Under the pieces are notes generated by a model. It saw only the letters and a program-made list of their open reading frames with translations, ran no database searches and was not told the DNA's origin. The position numbers and the translations under genes are program-made. This document shows, one piece after another, positions 42,215 to 50,634 of a stretch of DNA of 56,386 nt (the first letter of the stretch is position 1; each line of letters begins with the position of its first letter). Source of the stretch: an uncultured Bacteriovoracaceae bacterium (lineage in GTDB: Bacteria; Bdellovibrionota; Bacteriovoracia; Bacteriovoracales; Bacteriovoracaceae); the NCBI GenBank assembly GCA_950054155.1, contig CATLOT010000024.1:1-56386 (forward strand), in the 5' to 3' direction.

Positions 42215-42610
42215 ATGGCCAACCAAAATGATCAGGATTTAAGAATCGCAGTCGTAGATGACTCCGACTTCTCACGAAAGACAGTTGTTGAAATACTTGA
42301 AAATGAAGGTTTCAATGTTGTTGGCCAAGCCTCTTCTGCGGAAGAGGGCATCAGCTTAGGCACCAGTGCAGGTGCAAACCTCTTTATCATTGATGTCATT
42401 ATGCCAGAGAGATCCGGCCTTGAAATGGCTAAGCTCATGAGTGAAAAAGGCATGGGTGTTCACATCATCATGATGTCTTCAATCAATATGGAATCAATCA
42501 TCATTGAATCTATCTCAAGTGGGGCCATTGACTTCCTTCCTAAGCCATTTATGGCCGAGGACCTCATAAAGGCCGTTAAAAAAATACAACTTGAAAGGGC
42601 TAAGTTTTAA
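42215..42610 (+). CDS. CheY-like single-domain response regulator
   Basis: 131 residues, a receiver domain only. The phospho-acceptor set is complete: acidic pair D15-D16 (VVDDSDFS), phosphorylation site D60 (FIIDVIMPERSG), the switch serines at 88-89 (IIMMSSIN) and K110 (FLPKPF). The IDFLPKPF end fits the CheY / CheB-receiver group. There is no output domain, so it signals by protein contact. It lies 55 bases after lon and two bases before a small membrane-protein gene. No histidine kinase is in the window. Translation may be controlled by the hairpin that covers its ribosome-binding site. Confidence 0.88.
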   Translation: MANQNDQDLRIAVVDDSDFSRKTVVEILENEGFNVVGQASSAEEGISLGTSAGANLFIIDVIMPERSGLEMAKLMSEKGMGVHIIMMSSINMESIIIESISSGAIDFLPKPFMAEDLIKAVKKIQLERAKF

Positions 42611-42612
42611 TT

Positions 42613-42957
42613 ATGTTTTCGATCCTTAAGTTCTCCATTGCCTTTTGTTTTAGTTTTCTTCTCCTGAGTATTCCCGTTCAAGAAAAGCCCCTCTTTTACT
42701 ACCTTAACACTTGGGCCCAACCCATTACTGAAGAAGTCTTCTCTGGGTCTCGAGAGGCACTTCTCGATGGTGTAAAGAAAGGGAAAAGCTTCAGCACAAA
42801 AATTTTCAACAACACCATTCCAAAGGAAGATAAAATCTCCACGAAGTCTTCGTCAGTTGATAAAGAAGAGCTAGAAGAGCATCTTCACAACCATTCTGAG
42901 GACTACACCATGGAAGAGAGAGATATGCTTCAAAAGATTATTCTCAATAACCAGTAA
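42613..42957 (+). CDS. Small membrane-anchored or secreted protein, unknown function
   Basis: 114 residues. The N-terminus (FSILKFSIAFCFSFLLLSIPVQ) is a signal peptide or anchor. The rest is hydrophilic with an acidic, histidine-containing C-terminal part (KEELEEHLHNHSEDYTMEERDMLQKII). It begins two bases after the response-regulator stop and is surely co-transcribed with it. No family recognised. Confidence 0.6.
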   Translation: MFSILKFSIAFCFSFLLLSIPVQEKPLFYYLNTWAQPITEEVFSGSREALLDGVKKGKSFSTKIFNNTIPKEDKISTKSSSVDKEELEEHLHNHSEDYTMEERDMLQKIILNNQ

Positions 42958-43116: not shown

Positions 43117-43203
43117 ATGAAAAGAGATAAGATTAAGAATTCGATTCAGTTTCATGCACCAGGCATCCTCTTTCTCGCAATTGGATACTTGCTTATTAGT
43201 TAA
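43117..43203 (+). CDS. 28-residue hydrophobic small protein
   Basis: An ATG at 43117 with an excellent AAGGAGGGG ribosome-binding site opens a 28-codon frame (begins MKRDKIKNSIQFHAPG, ends FLAIGYLLIS) and stops at 43201-43203; a strong terminator begins three bases later. The layout of basic N-terminus and hydrophobic C-terminal half suits a small membrane-inserted peptide. An inverted repeat (TTTGAGGT / ACCTCAAA, 43048-43077) lies upstream. The frame is short, but the ribosome-binding site directly followed by a terminator argues for a real gene. No relatives known to me. Confidence 0.55.
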   Translation: MKRDKIKNSIQFHAPGILFLAIGYLLIS

Positions 43204-43205
43204 AT

Positions 43206-43234
43206 AAAAAAGCCACCTTAGAGGTGGCTTTTTT
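43206..43234. terminator. Bidirectional intrinsic terminator
   Basis: GCCACC (43212-43217), loop TTAGA, GGTGGC (43223-43228), flanked by A6 and T6. It serves the 28-codon gene on the plus strand and the convergent small secreted-protein gene on the minus strand. Confidence 0.9.
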
Positions 43235-43258
43235 AATGCGGTCAATTTGAGCTTGTTC

Positions 43259-43444
43259 TTATTTTGCAGTAGCTTCTGATTCAACTTCTTTAGCAACTTC
43301 AGTCTCTGCTACAACGTCAGCATTTCCATTACGACTCGCTTGGATCATTTCAGCACAATCAGTAACACTCTCTCCTACTTGTGAAGCAGCGATTGAAGAA
43401 GTCATTGTTAAGATCATACATGCAGTAAAAAGTAGTTTTTTCAT
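43259..43444 (-). CDS. Small secreted protein, paralogue of the product at 45050-45241
   Basis: 61 residues from the ATG at 43444 (GAGGAGAG upstream; the open frame extends to 43522, which lies upstream of the promoter). Signal peptide MKKLLFTACMILTMTSSIAA, then SQVGESVTDCAEMIQASRNGN and a Glu/Ala/Val-rich tail ending EATAK. The mature motif G-E-S-(x3)-D-C-(x3)-I-Q-x-S-R is shared with the protein at 45050-45241, so the two are paralogues. The single mature cysteine may form an intermolecular disulfide. It has a near-perfect sigma-54 promoter and its own terminator, so it is a single-gene, regulated transcript. Confidence 0.75.
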   Translation of the reverse strand: MKKLLFTACMILTMTSSIAASQVGESVTDCAEMIQASRNGNADVVAETEVAKEVESEATAK

Positions 43445-43480
43445 TTCTCTCTCCTCTTTTGTTTTAGTTGCTTTATATAG

Positions 43481-43497
43481 AAGCAAAGATAGTGCCA
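43481..43497 (-). promoter_or_regulatory. Sigma-54 promoter of the 61-residue secreted-protein gene
   Basis: Read on the minus strand: TGGCAC, TATCT, TTGCTT, matching TGGCAC-N5-TTGCW exactly. The transcript would start near 43471, 27 bases before the ATG at 43444. Confidence 0.75.
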
Positions 43498-43582
43498 ACT
43501 TTTTAGTTGTAAAAACAGGCACTTAAAAACCAATGAGTGAGTAAAGATTTTACTGTGTATAAACAATTGACGAAATTAGCCC

Positions 43583-44971
43583 TCAACCGAGCCAGGAGAG
43601 GAGCTTTCTTATCAATCCCAGCTTCCCTTTATAGGGAGGATAGCGCACGGGTAAGTCTAAAAATGTCCCTCGATGCATAATCGACTTGGTATGGCTGAAT
43701 GTATCGAAGCTCTTCTTGCCATGATAAGCACCCATACCACTAGCCCCTCGTCCGCCAAAAGGTAAGTGAGGGCTCGTTAAGTGCACGATGGAATCGTTAA
43801 TACATTGACCACCACTTGGAATCTCAGACACAAAGCGCTCAATGATGGTGTTACTGTCGCTGAAGAGGTATGCCGCTAAAGGGTTAGGTCTCTTAAAGAT
43901 CAGCTGCTTGGCCTCATCAAAGCTCTTAACTTTTACAAGGGGCAGAATCGGCCCAAAGATTTCATCTTCCATAACCTTTTTATGAAAGTCGGCTTTAACC
44001 AATGTTGGTTCAAGATAGAGGTCTTTTTGGTCCCCCTTTCCACCATGAAGAACATCTTCTGGATTAATTAAATCCAATAGTCTAGTGAAGTGGCGCTCAC
44101 TGATGATCCGTCCATAGTCTTCCGACATCTGGGGGTTATCCCCAAAGAACTCAGTAATATATTTTTTAAGGTTATCCACAAGTTCATCAAAGCGCGATTC
44201 GTGCACCAGGATATAATCTGGGGCCACACATGTTTGACCCGTGTTAAAAAACTTCCCCCAAACAATTCTCTTAGCGGCAAGAGAGATGTTATCCGCCTCT
44301 AAAACCAAACAGGGTGACTTTCCTCCCAATTCTAAAGTTACCGGACAAAGGTGTTTAGCTGCTTTTTCCATAACGATTCTGCCAACGCTCCCATTTCCCG
44401 TGTAAAAAATATGATCAAAAGGAAGATCGAGCAGTGCCTGAGTTTCCTCAACAGCCCCCTCGACAACAGACACCACATCAGAAGAAAAATAGCGGGGAAC
44501 AAGCTCTGCAATAACTTTAGATGTTGCTACTGCAATTTCAGAGGGCTTAAGGATCACGACATTCCCAGCAGCTAAAGCCCCAATCAAAGGAGACATCAGT
44601 AACTGAAAAGGATAATTCCACGGACTAATAATAAGAACCTTTCCTAGTGGCTCAGGACGCGTCCAGGACCATGCAGGAAATTGAAGGTGGGGGGCGAGAT
44701 GAAAACGCTTCTTCATCCACTTTTTTAAGCTTTTTAAAGTATGCTTAATTTCATTAATGGTAAAAAGAGTTTCGCTAATAGCCCCCTCAAACTCACTCTT
44801 ACCAAGATCCTCTCTCAGAGCGGCAATAATGCTCTTCTCGTTGTCCTCGATCAGTTTCTGGAGTGCCAATAGGTTATTTTTCCGGGCTTCATAAGAGGCC
44901 ATTACGCCCTTCTCAAAAGCAACCTTCTGCGATTCAAATATTGTGCTAATTTGCTCAAGTTCTGTATTCAA
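43583..44971 (-). CDS. Aldehyde dehydrogenase, class 3 / AlkH-like
   Basis: 462 residues from a TTG at 44971 with AAGGATAGG upstream. The open frame reaches 45004, but its first codons lie inside the terminator of the preceding gene, so that start is rejected. ALDH motifs: PLGKVLIISPWNYPFQL, GNVVILKPSE, FYTGNGSVGR, the glutamate in TLELGGKSP, the nucleophile cysteine in FFNTGQTC and LPFGGRGASGMGAYHGK. The short form with YPPYKGKLGLIRKLLSW at the C-terminus, hydrophobic and possibly membrane-binding, is typical of class 3 fatty or aromatic aldehyde dehydrogenases. It stands alone between two small secreted-protein genes. Confidence 0.88.
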   Translation of the reverse strand: MNTELEQISTIFESQKVAFEKGVMASYEARKNNLLALQKLIEDNEKSIIAALREDLGKSEFEGAISETLFTINEIKHTLKSLKKWMKKRFHLAPHLQFPAWSWTRPEPLGKVLIISPWNYPFQLLMSPLIGALAAGNVVILKPSEIAVATSKVIAELVPRYFSSDVVSVVEGAVEETQALLDLPFDHIFYTGNGSVGRIVMEKAAKHLCPVTLELGGKSPCLVLEADNISLAAKRIVWGKFFNTGQTCVAPDYILVHESRFDELVDNLKKYITEFFGDNPQMSEDYGRIISERHFTRLLDLINPEDVLHGGKGDQKDLYLEPTLVKADFHKKVMEDEIFGPILPLVKVKSFDEAKQLIFKRPNPLAAYLFSDSNTIIERFVSEIPSGGQCINDSIVHLTSPHLPFGGRGASGMGAYHGKKSFDTFSHTKSIMHRGTFLDLPVRYPPYKGKLGLIRKLLSWLG

Positions 44972-44984
44972 AAGACCTATCCTT

Positions 44985-45018
44985 AAAAAAGAAAAGTCCC
45001 ACAATCGTGGGACTTTTT
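44985..45018. terminator. Intrinsic terminator
   Basis: AAAAGTCCCAC (44992-45002), loop AATC, GTGGGACTTTT (45007-45017), followed on the minus strand by a T-run (44985-44990). It ends the 63-residue secreted-protein transcript immediately before the ribosome-binding site of the aldehyde dehydrogenase gene. Confidence 0.9.
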
Positions 45019-45049
45019 AACTAAAACAAAAATAGTATCTCTTTTTACA

Positions 45050-45241
45050 TTACTTTGCGCTAGCACCTTCATTATTTTCTTCGGCTTTGTCTACCGAAGC
45101 AGTGTTGTCTACTGTTTCTTGAAAACGGCTGCTTTGAATTGAGTCAACACAGTCTGCTTTCATACTTTCACCCATTTCCTCACCAGCGTAAGATACGTTA
45201 ATAAGTAAAATGGCCATCATTGCTAAAAATAAATTCTTCAT
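45050..45241 (-). CDS. Small secreted protein, paralogue of the product at 43259-43444
   Basis: 63 residues: signal peptide MKNLFLAMMAILLINVSYA, then GEEMGESMKADCVDSIQSSR and an Asp/Glu/Ala/Asn-rich tail ending GASAK. GES, DC and IQ-S-SR align with the paralogue at 43259-43444 and the C-terminal A-(T/S)-A-K is shared. GAGGGAGGTAAGAG precedes the ATG. It has its own sigma-54 promoter and terminator. Such acidic, signal-bearing micro-proteins are common in predatory bacteria of this group, but I know no function. Confidence 0.75.
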   Translation of the reverse strand: MKNLFLAMMAILLINVSYAGEEMGESMKADCVDSIQSSRFQETVDNTASVDKAEENNEGASAK

Positions 45242-45294
45242 CTCTTACCTCCCTCTAAACTAAGAGTTCATTTAAACTATTATGTTTATATAAG

Positions 45295-45311
45295 AAGCAA
45301 GTAGCGTGCCA
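45295..45311 (-). promoter_or_regulatory. Sigma-54 promoter of the 63-residue secreted-protein gene
   Basis: Read on the minus strand: TGGCAC, GCTAC, TTGCTT, an exact match to the consensus. The following bases (CTTATATAAAC) resemble those after the other site (CTATATAAAGC). Predicted start near 45285. Confidence 0.75.
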
Positions 45312-45393
45312 GACTTGGTCTTTTGATTTTAACTAGTTAAAGAGGTGTAAAAAGATGAAGCGCTTAATGCTTCATACAGTGTTTAAATTTTTG

Positions 45394-45426
45394 ACAAAAA
45401 AAAGCCGCTTCATTTGAAGCGGCTTT
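45394..45426 (-). terminator. Intrinsic terminator of the 70-residue secreted-protein gene
   Basis: Perfect 11-base inverted repeat AAAGCCGCTTC / GAAGCGGCTTT (45401-45411, 45416-45426), with a T-run on the minus strand from the A-run at 45396-45403. Confidence 0.88.
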
Positions 45427-45448: not shown

Positions 45449-45661
45449 TTATTGGACAGTACTTGTGTTATCTGAAGCATCAGCAGGGAGATTAGAACCA
45501 TCTCCATCCACATCTGATCCGGTACCTTGTACCACACACTCACCACATGTCGAATTAGGACCACAATTAGCTTGTTCACCTAATTGAGCATCGCCGTCCG
45601 CCATTGAGTAAGTACTTAAGCCCATTAGCATCATCATCATTAGTAGTTTTAATCCTTTCAT
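45449..45661 (-). CDS. Small secreted protein with two close cysteine pairs
   Basis: 70 residues from the ATG at 45661, preceded by a perfect AGGTGAT ribosome-binding site; a GTG nine bases earlier also keeps the frame. Signal peptide MKGLKLLMMMMLMGLSTYSMA, then DGDAQLGEQANCGPNSTCGECVVQG and a Asp/Ser/Gly-rich acidic tail. It shares genomic habit (short, secreted, own terminator) with the 61- and 63-residue proteins but has no clear sequence similarity to them and no sigma-54 site. It lies downstream of the YD-repeat gene on the same strand. Confidence 0.7.
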   Translation of the reverse strand: MKGLKLLMMMMLMGLSTYSMADGDAQLGEQANCGPNSTCGECVVQGTGSDVDGDGSNLPADASDNTSTVQ

Positions 45662-45778: not shown

Positions 45779-47404
45779 TTACATATTCAGATTTACACCT
45801 GCTGGCTTAACAATAGCGAGCAGACTCTGAAAAGCTTGTGTCACCTGAAGAGCCATCTTGTGACCTTGCTTTGACTCTACCTTCTTGATCTCACCATAGT
45901 TGTCATAGGCAACGTTAATTTTTCCATGACCTTCCATTTTGATTTCAACAGGCTTACCAAGAGCGTTGTAAACAAAGCTTAGAGTTCTGTTCTTATTCGT
46001 CTTAGAATCTTTGTCGAACATCTTAGTGATGCGACCTTTTGTATCGTAGAAGAGCATCACTTGCTTACCTTTGTCGTTTGTCGCTTTCACAAGGTTCGCA
46101 CGACCATCGTAAGAAAAGTTCGTAACACCTTTATTGTTAACAACTTTAGTAATCTTGTTAAACTTTGGGTGGTAAGAAAGCTCTACGCTATCACCTTTTG
46201 AAGAGGCTTTCTTCGTGAGGAGCCCTTTCTTGTTATATTCAAAAGTCGTTGTGTTATTTCCACGTGTAATCTTAAGAGGAAGTGAACAACACTCAGAGTA
46301 AACGGTCTCAGTTTTGATTGAGTTGATCTCTGTTGCGATTCTATAAGTGTACTGAGATCCATCTGGACGAGTTTTGATTTCGTACTCGTACTTAGAAACC
46401 GATTTCTTACCACTTGGAGATGTTTTCGCAACAGTTGTCCAGTAGTGAAATTCAGGGTTCTTAGGGTTAGACTCATACTTATACTTTGTTGATTCACCAT
46501 TTCTTGAGATCACTTCTTCAACAAATTGTGTCTTAGGAGTGTATTTAATTTCTAGCTTAGACCCATCTGTGTAGCCAACAGAAGTCATATTGTGGTTACC
46601 ATCATATGTGTACTTGAACACATTTCCAGCAACATCTTTAGACTCCACAAGGTTATCTTCACGATACTTGTAGTGAGTTTTCTTATCACCTGAAGAGTAG
46701 ATATGCTTTACTTTACCGTCTGCGTACCACTCGAAGAAAAGTTGCTTTGCTTGGCTATCTTTAATTGAAACGAGGTTACCTTTTTTGTAATTGAGAGAAA
46801 CACTGTAACCATTCTTAGTAGACATCTTTACGAGTTTACCATCTTTGTTAAAGTATTCTTTTTTGCCATCGTTAAAAGCTCTCATGAAGCCCTTCTTTGT
46901 TTTAACGATCTTTTGCAGCCCTCTTACATTGGAAAAAAGCTCCGTACCTGCTGCAATCTTAGCCTGTACCTTGTACTTTCTCGCATAAGCTTGTCTCAAT
47001 TCAGCATCGTTCTTAAGTTTCCCTAAGAGATTCTTTGCCACGCCGTCATTAATAGCTGACTTCTTTCTGATTGCAGCGATAATATCTTGTGCTGCTTTAT
47101 CAGCATTTACTGCCGTTTTAGGAGTAAATCTTGTCAAAGCCCCTGAGCCATTTTCATGAACAACTACAGAACCGTCCGCAGACACTGTCACGTAAGTCTC
47201 ATAATCACTACCCCAGCCAAATCCAAACCAACCTTTCTCAGTCGACTTAGAGTTATTTGTTCGAGTAATCTCAAGATCCATTCCGCCACCGGGAACAATG
47301 ATATCCGTATAGGAAATATAAAAATTCCCATTTTTCAGATTCACCCCAGCAAATGCCATTGAAGGGATTAGTAATAAAAGTAACAACAGTTTCATAGCTC
47401 TCAT
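45779..47404 (-). CDS. Secreted YD-repeat (RHS-like) protein without a toxin domain
   Basis: 541 residues with a signal peptide (KLLLLLLLIPSMAFA). The N-terminal part (VNLKNGNFYISYTDIIVPGGGMDLEITRTNNS...GWFGFGWGSDYET) is the conserved head found before RHS repeats. From about residue 190 there are repeated YD-type units: FEWYADGKVKHI, FKYTYDGNHNMTSVGY, FEYNKKGLLTKKA, FSYDGRANLVKAT, LFYDTKGRITKMF, FVYNALGKPVEIK. The normal RHS core-end and variable C-terminal toxin are absent; it stops soon after the last repeat (KPAGVNLNM). It lies between the Tad operon and the small secreted genes. AAAGGA precedes the start. A role in attachment or host contact is a guess from context. Confidence 0.78.
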   Translation of the reverse strand: MRAMKLLLLLLLIPSMAFAGVNLKNGNFYISYTDIIVPGGGMDLEITRTNNSKSTEKGWFGFGWGSDYETYVTVSADGSVVVHENGSGALTRFTPKTAVNADKAAQDIIAAIRKKSAINDGVAKNLLGKLKNDAELRQAYARKYKVQAKIAAGTELFSNVRGLQKIVKTKKGFMRAFNDGKKEYFNKDGKLVKMSTKNGYSVSLNYKKGNLVSIKDSQAKQLFFEWYADGKVKHIYSSGDKKTHYKYREDNLVESKDVAGNVFKYTYDGNHNMTSVGYTDGSKLEIKYTPKTQFVEEVISRNGESTKYKYESNPKNPEFHYWTTVAKTSPSGKKSVSKYEYEIKTRPDGSQYTYRIATEINSIKTETVYSECCSLPLKITRGNNTTTFEYNKKGLLTKKASSKGDSVELSYHPKFNKITKVVNNKGVTNFSYDGRANLVKATNDKGKQVMLFYDTKGRITKMFDKDSKTNKNRTLSFVYNALGKPVEIKMEGHGKINVAYDNYGEIKKVESKQGHKMALQVTQAFQSLLAIVKPAGVNLNM

Positions 47405-47494: not shown

Positions 47495-48388
47495 CTAAGT
47501 CTTTATTTTTACTACTTTTAGAATAACCCAGAATCCAAAAGCATCGAGAGCGATAGCGACAATCGTCATAACAATGCCAAGAGGGTGTGTGACCATCAAT
47601 TTGATTGAATTGGGATCACTAGCGCCATAGATTCCCGCGATAGCAAAAGGCATACAAGCGATCGTAACCCCTTGAAACATACCTTGTGCGGTATAGGTAT
47701 CAACCTTTTGCTGAAGGCGGACCCTTTCACGAATAACGCTAACAATGGTGTCAAAGACCTCTGCAAGGTTACCACCAGTTTCGCGAAGAATATTAATCGA
47801 AGAAACAAACATATCATTATCTTCAGTAGGCACCCTCTTCGTGAGGTTTTCAAAGCACTCTTCAAGCGTAATACCAATTCTATTTTGCTGTAGGATTAAG
47901 CCGAACTCTTGGGAGATAGGTGGATTGAGCTCGTTAACAACCATACCTAAAGCTTGAGGAACAGAGAGACCTGCTCGAATACCGTTTGCCAGAAGAGTAA
48001 GGCCATCAACCATCTGCCCCTGGTATTGCTTAATCCTTCTTTGAACCATGTAATCTACAATTTTCTTGGGTATTCGAAAGGAAAGGACACCAACAATAAT
48101 GCCTATGACAAAGCCAAGAATCCAACTTATCCACAGACCAAAAAAGATCATAAAGAAACAAGAAAGGGACAGTGAAAAAATCAATAATCCCATTGTGAGT
48201 TTATCTGGATTGACCTCAATAAAAAGAAGCTCAAGCTTTTCTAAAATATAAGTTCTTGTTCCTAAGGTCTGGGCTTCAATCCAGTCAAAAATATTTACCG
48301 AATAACGTAAACAAAAGATAAAGATCAACAAGGCGATTATTATTAAAATCCCCTTCTGCCCGAAAATAACAGTAATGACATATGACAT
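47495..48388 (-). CDS. tadB: Tad pilus inner-membrane platform protein TadB
   Basis: 297 residues with hydrophobic helices at both ends and a GspF/T2SSF domain in between. The signature GLTLLANGIRAGLSVPQALGMVVNELNPPISQEF and EDNDMFVSSINILRETGGNLAEVFDTIVSVIRERVRLQQKV is that of TadB-type proteins. TadB normally pairs with TadC, but no tadC follows: the next gene is the YD-repeat protein. It ends the Tad operon, five bases after the TadZ-TadA fusion gene. Confidence 0.88.
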   Translation of the reverse strand: MSYVITVIFGQKGILIIIALLIFIFCLRYSVNIFDWIEAQTLGTRTYILEKLELLFIEVNPDKLTMGLLIFSLSLSCFFMIFFGLWISWILGFVIGIIVGVLSFRIPKKIVDYMVQRRIKQYQGQMVDGLTLLANGIRAGLSVPQALGMVVNELNPPISQEFGLILQQNRIGITLEECFENLTKRVPTEDNDMFVSSINILRETGGNLAEVFDTIVSVIRERVRLQQKVDTYTAQGMFQGVTIACMPFAIAGIYGASDPNSIKLMVTHPLGIVMTIVAIALDAFGFWVILKVVKIKT

Positions 48389-48393
48389 AACTC

Positions 48394-50634
48394 TTACGCC
48401 TTTTTCTTCTTAGGTGGTGCTCCGTTTGGTCTTTGTGGTCTTTGACCCGGCCTTTGACCTGGTCTTTGCCCCGGCTTCTTTTGCTGCCCCTCAGGTGGTG
48501 CAGCTTCTTTCTTAGGAGGCGGTGCCCCCTGAGCATTATTGAAGAGCCCTCGTGGGACGTTGTAACCCTTCTTTTCTAGGATTTCGATAAACTTAGGGAT
48601 GAAGCCTGTCGCTTGATACTCACCCTCAATTTTTCCATTCTTATCAAATCCTCTTTGATTATAAATAAAGATATCCTGAAGAATAACGACGTCCCCCTGC
48701 ATACCACCAAGTTCAGTAACATAAGTCACTCTTCTTGAACCATCATCAAGACGGGACTGTTGAATAATGAGGTGAACTGCATTTGAGATCATTTCACGAA
48801 TGGCCTTAGGCTCTAGACCTGCACCAGCATACTGAACAAGTGTCTCAATACGACCAATACATTCTCGAGGATTATTTGAGTGAACTGTCGTCATAGAACC
48901 TTCGTGCCCAGTTCCCATAGCCTGAAGCATATCAAGAGTCTCTCCACCACGACACTCCCCAACCACAATTCTATCTGGTCTCATTCTCAGCGTCTGTTTT
49001 ACCAAACAGCGAATATCAATTTCTCCATCACCTTCGAGTGAAGGTGGTCTCGTCTCAAGGCGAACAACGTGATCTTGAGGTAGATCAAGTTCAGCCGAGT
49101 CCTCACAAGTAATCACCCTTTCATTAGCAGGAATAAAGGATCCCAGAACGTTAATAAGGGTCGTCTTACCAGAACCAGTACCACCGGAAACGATAATATT
49201 CTTGTGGGCCTCAACGGCAATCCGAAGAAAGTCAGCCATGTTTTGAGTCATAGAATCAAACTTCACAAGATCTTTATAAGTAAGTCTGTTCTCAGGAAAT
49301 TTACGAATAGTAATCGTGCATCCATCAAGTGCACAAGGAGGAATGATGGCGTGAACCCTCGATCCATCCTTCAAACGAGCATCAACATAGGGTGTTTTTT
49401 CATCAATTCGACGTCCAATGGGCGCTACAATTCTTTCAATAACATTAAGAACCTGACGATCATTAGTGAAGGTAATATTGGATTTCTTAATTTTACCGCC
49501 GTGCTCATAATAGATTTTATCTGGACCAATAACCATGATCTCTGAACATTCTTTATCCGCAAGAAGATCCTCTAGAGGTCCAAGGCCTAGAGCTTCATCT
49601 AAAATCTCCTTAACAATCTGATTCATATCTTCACGACTGTTCAGGACACCCTTTGTGTCTTCTTTATTGAGAATATCGACGACAACTTTTTTGGTCTGCT
49701 CTTTTAAAATGACTTGCGCTTTAGGATCATCTTTATCAGTCTTCTTAAGATCCATCTCATCATAGAGACGACGATGAATTCTCGATTTAAGAGCACCCCA
49801 GGCATCGCCCTTTTCCTCGCCTCCTGCACTTCCCGCGGCACCAGTGCTCTTTTTTTGAACATCAGTCGGCTTATTGAGCCTAGCAAGGGTTTTAAGCACG
49901 TTCTTTTGAATAAGCTTTCTTACAGTCTCAGTGACTCCCTTTGCAAAGGCAGAGTTCTTATTGAGAACCATAATGGGCTTTTTCTGGTTAAGGGCAGAAA
50001 CACAAGTTTGATCATCTTTAGGAACTGTTGAGAAAACGGGCTTACCAATTGTCTTTCCCATCACCTCCGGTGTTACCGGATGACCCTTTTGAACCTGATT
50101 TCCAATGACGAGAATCATATCTTTTGGGAAGAGCATCGTAACAAGCTCTGAATAAAGACGCTTAGTTTGATTTAGTGCTAAGATGTCTGGCGTAACGACT
50201 AGAAAAATCGCCGTGCTATATTCAAGAGCCTTTAAAGTAAGAGGTGTTAGCTCACTCCCCCCATCAATAATAGTAAGAGGATAGAGATTGGGAGCTGCTT
50301 TAAGAAAAGCACCAAGCCCTTCACTATTGATGGCTGCAGATGCTGTTGGATCATCCGGCATACCAATATATTGAACACCTGAGGGGTGAGCTGTTAGAAA
50401 GGGCATAATCGAGCGCGGATCAATAGACCCACTAAACTCAGAGAGTTCTCTAACGCTTTTCTTAGACTTAATACCCGTAATAAAGTTCTGATCACCAGAA
50501 GCCTTTTGATCAAAGTCCATAAGCATGATCTTTGATCTTGTTTCAGCCGCATAAGCGAAGGCCATATTGGCAGCAATCTGAGATTTACCAACCCCACCTT
50601 TACCACCAATAATCGTAATTATATTTCCGGCCAT
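48394..50634 (-). CDS. Fused TadZ-TadA: ParA-like localisation domain plus pilus secretion ATPase
   Basis: 746 residues. Residues 1-250 are a MinD/ParA-like TadZ (CpaE) domain with the deviant Walker A KGGVGKS at 12-18. Residues 275-690 are a complete TadA (CpaF) ATPase: GPDKIYYEHGGKI, the Walker A GGTGSGKTT at 484-492, EDSAELDLPQDHVVRLETRPPS, RMRPDRIVVGECRGGETLDMLQAMGTGHEGSMTTVHSN (Walker B and His box). The last 45 residues are Pro/Gln/Lys-rich with GQRP repeats. In most Tad loci these are two genes; here one chain ties pole localisation to assembly power. It sits directly after the secretin gene (adjacent, no gap). Confidence 0.9.
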   Translation of the reverse strand: MAGNIITIIGGKGGVGKSQIAANMAFAYAAETRSKIMLMDFDQKASGDQNFITGIKSKKSVRELSEFSGSIDPRSIMPFLTAHPSGVQYIGMPDDPTASAAINSEGLGAFLKAAPNLYPLTIIDGGSELTPLTLKALEYSTAIFLVVTPDILALNQTKRLYSELVTMLFPKDMILVIGNQVQKGHPVTPEVMGKTIGKPVFSTVPKDDQTCVSALNQKKPIMVLNKNSAFAKGVTETVRKLIQKNVLKTLARLNKPTDVQKKSTGAAGSAGGEEKGDAWGALKSRIHRRLYDEMDLKKTDKDDPKAQVILKEQTKKVVVDILNKEDTKGVLNSREDMNQIVKEILDEALGLGPLEDLLADKECSEIMVIGPDKIYYEHGGKIKKSNITFTNDRQVLNVIERIVAPIGRRIDEKTPYVDARLKDGSRVHAIIPPCALDGCTITIRKFPENRLTYKDLVKFDSMTQNMADFLRIAVEAHKNIIVSGGTGSGKTTLINVLGSFIPANERVITCEDSAELDLPQDHVVRLETRPPSLEGDGEIDIRCLVKQTLRMRPDRIVVGECRGGETLDMLQAMGTGHEGSMTTVHSNNPRECIGRIETLVQYAGAGLEPKAIREMISNAVHLIIQQSRLDDGSRRVTYVTELGGMQGDVVILQDIFIYNQRGFDKNGKIEGEYQATGFIPKFIEILEKKGYNVPRGLFNNAQGAPPPKKEAAPPEGQQKKPGQRPGQRPGQRPQRPNGAPPKKKKA

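Follow-up and report, generated by a model that had tools for sequence, protein, structure and literature searches.

How pilus contact is coupled to prey-dependent versus prey-independent growth in Bdellovibrio and its relatives is a long-standing question, and most prey-independent mutants map to bd0108. This gene encodes an exported, disordered protein, which binds Bd0109 and controls both pili and prey-dependence (PMC4267844; PMC3818213). Within the hit locus of strain HD100, Capeness (2013) described a "small non-coding RNA" at 96455–96716, between bd0103 and bd0108, which is up in all bd0108 mutants (prey-independent) and low in attack phase (PMC3818213). The part of an attack-phase study available to us contains no mention of bd0108 or the hit locus, and lists the attack-phase RNAs elsewhere (PMC3627812). 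A literature search on bd0106 and bd0107 found nothing. Outside Bdellovibrio, Prehna (2014) noted that the Bd0109 homologue of Bacteriovorax marinus has two small neighbours with signal peptides and no homology to Bd0108, and left them unexplained (PMC4267844).

The Bacteriovoracaceae counterpart of the hit locus

The window analysed here is a stretch of 56,386 nucleotides from an uncultured Bacteriovoracaceae bacterium (contig CATLOT010000024.1 of assembly GCA_950054155.1). The locus has a conserved end formed by a receiver-only response regulator (42215–42610, plus strand, PF00072), followed by a small membrane protein of 114 aa (42613–42957, plus strand) with a similar gene at the equivalent place in Bdellovibrio. 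On the minus strand are two micro-genes, pep1 (43259–43444) and pep2 (45050–45241), separated by an aldehyde dehydrogenase gene (43583–45004, PF00171), then a third small gene, pep3 (45449–45661), the gene of an exported RHS/YD-repeat protein of 541 aa homologous to Bd0109 (45779–47404, PF05593 and PF20148), and genes for a TadB/C-type membrane protein (47495–48388, PF00482) and a CpaE-like plus CpaF/TadA-like ATPase forming one 746-aa protein (48394–50634, PF01656 and PF00437). The window and Bdellovibrio agree in gene order, from the response regulator through the small membrane protein, the micro-genes, the CxEC protein and the RHS protein to Tad, and the RHS protein was found in 134 of the 144 genomes of the phylum sample. 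Judged from gene content and order, the locus corresponds, in Bacteriovoracaceae, to the Bdellovibrio hit locus. This identity, pep3 and the enhancer-like palindromes described below are new with respect to the sequence-only reading of the same DNA, which had recognized pep1, pep2 and their promoters. The aldehyde dehydrogenase gene is present at the orthologous loci of several genera and missing from others, and we regard it as a bystander or an insertion. The 746-aa protein, with its CpaE-like (ParA/MinD) and CpaF/TadA-like domains, appears to be two Tad proteins fused into one.

The positional counterpart of Bd0108 is pep3, whose 70-aa exported product is encoded about 117 nt downstream of the RHS gene, directly 3' of it; a terminator (45401–45426, minus strand) was found downstream of pep3 by the terminator scan. 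The pep3 product contains STCGEC, a CxEC motif, where Bd0108 has CREC, and pep3 is a third, more distant relative of pep1 and pep2 without a sigma-54 site. As in the window, Bd0108 is a small exported protein beside an RHS protein (Bd0109) and Tad genes, and it shares with the window's small proteins a lineage-specific distribution and the lack of a Pfam family. Bd0108, however, is 101 aa long, and its gene has no sigma-54 site and is co-transcribed with bd0109, whereas the pep1 and pep2 products are about 60 aa long, with one mature Cys, and each is under sigma-54. An hhalign comparison with Bd0108 gives a probability of 46% for a match that is essentially CxEC only. The relation suggested by the sequences is thus one of the same locus and a similar kind of protein, and we make no claim of a common family. 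In Bacteriovorax (Halobacteriovorax) marinus, the two small proteins BMS_0183 and BMS_0184, which have signal peptides and adjoin the Bd0109 homologue BMS_0182, are very likely members of the window's micro-protein family, the corresponding locus of our sample (L153 in genome G008) fitting by size and order. They are merely mentioned in PMC4267844, without analysis of promoter, family or function.

The pep1 and pep2 products, of 61 and 63 aa, respectively, are predicted to be exported by their signal peptides and contain a single Cys in the mature part, within the patterns GES..DC..IQASR..ATAK and GES..DC..IQSSR..ASAK. The GES, DC, IQ-S-SR and A-K elements that the sequence-only reading had taken as the mark of a paralogous pair are real in the profile built from 22 homologues (A1). 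The search for this motif in other genomes that it had proposed recovers members in 86 of 129 genomes sampled from the order; most of these genomes have two at a single locus, and the weakest matches span the signal peptide only. Across the window's family, Bacteriovoracaceae, about 90 homologues lie at the equivalent locus and keep the signal peptide, the single Cys and the GE..C core; exactly one Cys is present in the mature part of 88 of 90 members. A single-protein search yielded no relatives in 14 genomes of other families of the phylum, and there is no match in Pfam, NCBIfam or PDB. The mature part, of 40 residues, is probably disordered.

Each micro-gene has its own terminator, as had been proposed. 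That of pep2 (44992–45017, minus strand) was found by the scan, which listed the hairpins of pep2 and pep3 and not that of pep1; the latter (43207–43236, strand not assigned) was read directly off the sequence as GCCACCT-TAG-AGGTGGC, flanked on either side by T runs. On the opposite strand, a 28-codon ORF (43118–43204, plus strand, MKRDKIKNSIQFHAPGILFLAIGYLLIS) with a strong ribosome-binding site stops at this shared terminator and possibly encodes a membrane micro-protein.

Sigma-54 promoters and an upstream palindrome

Both micro-genes are preceded by an exact TGGCAC-N5-TTGCTT site, at 43481–43497 (minus strand, TGGCACTATCTTTGCTT), 38 nt before the ATG of pep1 and kept in its orthologues, and at 45295–45311 (minus strand, TGGCACGCTACTTGCTT), about 55 nt before that of pep2. 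Only five such sites occur in the whole 3.52-Mb genome (61 contigs) and none of the reversed pattern; a looser form, TGGCAYN6TGCW, has 48 sites versus six for its reversed control. Moreover, both micro-genes and both promoters are retained at the orthologous locus L008, and a GG-N10-GC element stands 30–55 nt before the ATG in nearly all homologues (53 loci). In 94 aligned homologue promoters the GG and GC are invariant and the spacer varies, and ribosome-binding sites precede the ATG of the homologues. Of 203 control ORFs from the same stretches, all 150 aa or longer, only two reach the promoter score of the micro-genes. The argument that the two promoters are no product of chance is borne out by these counts, and their pairing with the micro-genes, the absence of which from orthologous loci had been named as grounds for refutation, is present there. 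The genome encodes one rpoN (PF04552), and PF00158, the domain of sigma-54 activators, is matched 12 times, about nine of them strongly; rpoN is also found in 39 of 39 other genomes and, being universal in the phylum sample, is uninformative as a co-occurrence for sigma-54 dependence. Taken by motif, rpoN, activators and upstream site, the pep1 and pep2 promoters are predicted to be sigma-54 (RpoN)-dependent.

The upstream site is a conserved palindrome, TGTCTAAA-N-TTTAGACA. It reaches at least 12/16 in 78 of the 94 promoters, versus about 2.4 expected from shuffles. Since the consensus was drawn from those same promoters, it was retested on 30 held-out promoters from other families, of which 16 score at least 12 (0.4 expected) and 11 carry a perfect GTCT-N7-AGAC (0.10 expected). 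Measured from the −24 element, its positions cluster at approximately −57, −67, −76, −87 and −97, i.e. in steps of about 10 bp, and this helical phasing is significant (p<0.0002), also with each genus-position counted once; such spacing fits the site of an enhancer-binding protein. In the window, the palindrome of pep2 (45380–45396, minus strand, TGTCAAAAATTTAAACA) matches the consensus at 14/16, and that of pep1 (43556–43572, minus strand, CGTCAATTGTTTATACA) at 11/16, weak alone and located at the conserved position −75. In Bdellovibrio the palindrome often takes the form GTCTCA-nnn-TGAGAC and lies nearer to the promoter, at −24 or −34, a less usual placing for an enhancer. Neither the neighbours of the enhancer-binding-protein genes of the window's genome nor nearby sites point to a cognate activator. 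A PilR-like site, with TGTC half-sites, offers at most a tentative lead.

The sequence-only reading had proposed scanning the genome for further small secreted genes behind the same promoter. Exported proteins or lipoproteins do follow 11 of the 13 other promoters with both a sigma-54 site and the palindrome in the window's genome, versus a background of about 22% (p ~8e-6), export being called by a crude signal-peptide rule. The clearest non-hit member of this putative regulon would be a gene for a 490-aa exported protein, with a perfect palindrome, TGTCTAAAGTTTAGACA, upstream of its sigma-54 site (L014, G000:C15:77654-77735). Three intergenic sigma-54-like sites, L001 (C5:93415), L002 (C8:49421) and L190 (C21:26284), the last also with a palindrome, have no obvious downstream gene and are possibly sRNAs or missed micro-genes. 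At L069 (G000:C3:22000-31000), an NtrC-type activator gene and a response-regulator gene are divergent, the latter with TGGCATAGGAAATGCA ahead of it; 3.4 kb from there is a lipoprotein gene that has an exact sigma-54 site. Good palindromes also stand before exported-protein genes with no recognizable sigma-54 element (L210–L222, e.g. C2:25604, C6:53747, C14:61022); the regulator may have targets of other kinds, or these promoters may be degenerate.

The HD100 transcript

The HD100 hit locus (L274) agrees with the primers as published, both in sequence and in coordinates, which confirms the coordinate frame. A sigma-54 site (TGGCACACGCGATGCA, 96743–96758) lies beyond bd0108, 435 nt after bd0109, and is followed by a 66-codon ORF (96483–96683) encoding a signal peptide and one mature Cys; both published RT-PCR primers (96555–96574 and 96633–96652) fall inside this ORF. 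By codon position, the ORF differs at 2, 1 and 15 sites from a Tiberius-like genome and at 1, 0 and 12 sites from a third strain, the strains being related, so that these are not many independent tests, although the pattern is a clear mark of coding. In the Rfam search, every family stays below its gathering score. On the strength of the third-position bias, the hit-locus "non-coding RNA" looks like the mRNA of an exported micro-protein. It resembles the window's micro-genes in position, in its sigma-54 promoter and in its exported single-Cys ORF, here of 66 aa; it differs from them in its published designation as non-coding, in being present in one copy instead of two, and in the basic mature part of its product, acidic in the window's proteins. 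Sequence similarity between them is weak, an hhalign comparison with the HD100 micro-protein giving a probability of 56% that is partly due to the signal peptide.

Every examined genome of the genus Bdellovibrio has such a sigma-54 micro-gene, and some (L294, L301, L302) have two behind bd0108. Of 39 hit-locus stretches from other families, 26 have a sigma-54 site with a small exported ORF behind it, versus two in the reversed control; no sigma-54 micro-gene was recognized in the other 13 loci. Exported proteins under conserved sigma-54 promoters, with the palindrome at the position expected for an enhancer-binding protein, thus extend over the phylum, as the proposal of co-regulated secreted peptides would have it. 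The further suggestion of a switch during attack or host contact does not agree with the HD100 equivalent, which is low in attack phase and high in bd0108 mutants (PMC3818213).

Proposed role of the micro-proteins and competing explanations

We consider it rather probable that pep1 and pep2 are sigma-54-dependent micro-genes of the hit locus whose exported products act with the RHS and CxEC proteins. An enhancer-binding protein would bind TGTCTAAA-N-TTTAGACA on one helix face, 57–97 bp upstream of the −24 element, and the bound activator would switch on RNA polymerase-sigma-54 at each micro-gene. Each promoter would then give a short mRNA with its own hairpin end and one small, probably disordered protein exported by its signal peptide. 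Because the HD100 transcript rises on loss of Bd0108, the sigma-54 circuit appears to respond to Bd0108 or pilus status, and we infer that the enhancer-binding protein senses one or the other. The most likely partners of the micro-proteins in the periplasm would be the RHS protein and the Bd0108-like CxEC protein. Presumably the micro-proteins, alongside those of the Bd0108 kind, would bind the RHS protein (Bd0109 or its homologue) as ligands and may thereby tune pilus state and prey-dependence. The parts added to the prey-dependence circuit are a sigma-54 promoter, an enhancer palindrome common to other exported-protein genes and phylum-wide secreted micro-proteins. Moreover, if the published non-coding RNA is an mRNA, its induction in bd0108 mutants reads differently.

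Several other explanations were weighed against this scheme. Chance promoter matches, with transcription from another promoter, could draw on a weak sigma-70-like hexamer pair near pep1 and are nonetheless extremely improbable, given the controls and the phylogenetic conservation, which already refutes them. It is also quite improbable that the transcripts work as regulatory RNAs, the role suggested for the sRNA of the HD100 hit locus, and that their ORFs are incidental or secondary: the codon-position bias in both strain comparisons, the signal peptide, single Cys and GE..C core kept over the homologues, the ribosome-binding sites and the Rfam result all argue for coding genes, although short mono-cistronic units with a strong terminator do resemble sRNA genes and Capeness (2013) called the HD100 transcript, up in bd0108 mutants, non-coding (PMC3818213). 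The exported proteins and lipoproteins behind the other palindrome-bearing sigma-54 sites would fit a broad sigma-54 regulon in which the micro-genes are generic envelope-stress or housekeeping members and play no particular part in the hit circuit; we hold this to be unlikely, since the phylum-wide tie to the Bd0108/Bd0109 neighbourhood and the way the HD100 transcript responds when bd0108 is mutated speak against it.

A further reading concerns the paired evolution of the two paralogues, which was analysed in the 38 loci with exactly two members by within-genus permutation (5000 runs). Agreement between the paralogues of a genome is 0.55 in the mature core, versus 0.45 expected, and 0.54 in the last four residues, versus 0.36 expected (0/5000 and p<0.0002 in both cases). 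The signal peptides, in contrast, follow orthology (0.29 between paralogues versus 0.62 between orthologues in a genus), and in several genera the paralogue cores are identical at 20–21 of 21 positions behind strongly different signal peptides. Over all close pairs, 95 of 297 identical core residues have synonymous codon differences, which together with the differing signal peptides makes recent gene conversion alone unlikely; selection by a shared partner appears the simplest reading of the matching cores and C-termini. The same lineage-specific pattern, in which cores and ends differ between lineages and match within a genome, would suit pheromone-like signals of self-recognition or density, one mature sequence per lineage being secreted from two genes towards a receptor such as the RHS protein, and a quorum-like character of prey-independent growth has been mentioned by Prehna (2014; PMC4267844). 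We nevertheless judge this rather doubtful: receptor, processing protease and export out of the cell are all putative, and the pattern would be no different if the paralogues had coevolved with any partner common to both or had undergone gene conversion long ago. Within the scheme of hit-locus micro-proteins acting with the RHS and CxEC proteins, a more tentative idea is that of an unrecognized arm of the prey-dependence switch, made of sigma-54 and an enhancer-binding protein, in which the RHS shell of the Bd0109 type may recognize lineage-matched secreted micro-proteins as a signal of self or of status, the "small RNA" being the mRNA of one of them. Matching C-termini are especially striking in one genome (L057, G006), in which all three small proteins do so with SIDG, SIDG and TIDG, the third being the product of the gene free of a sigma-54 site.
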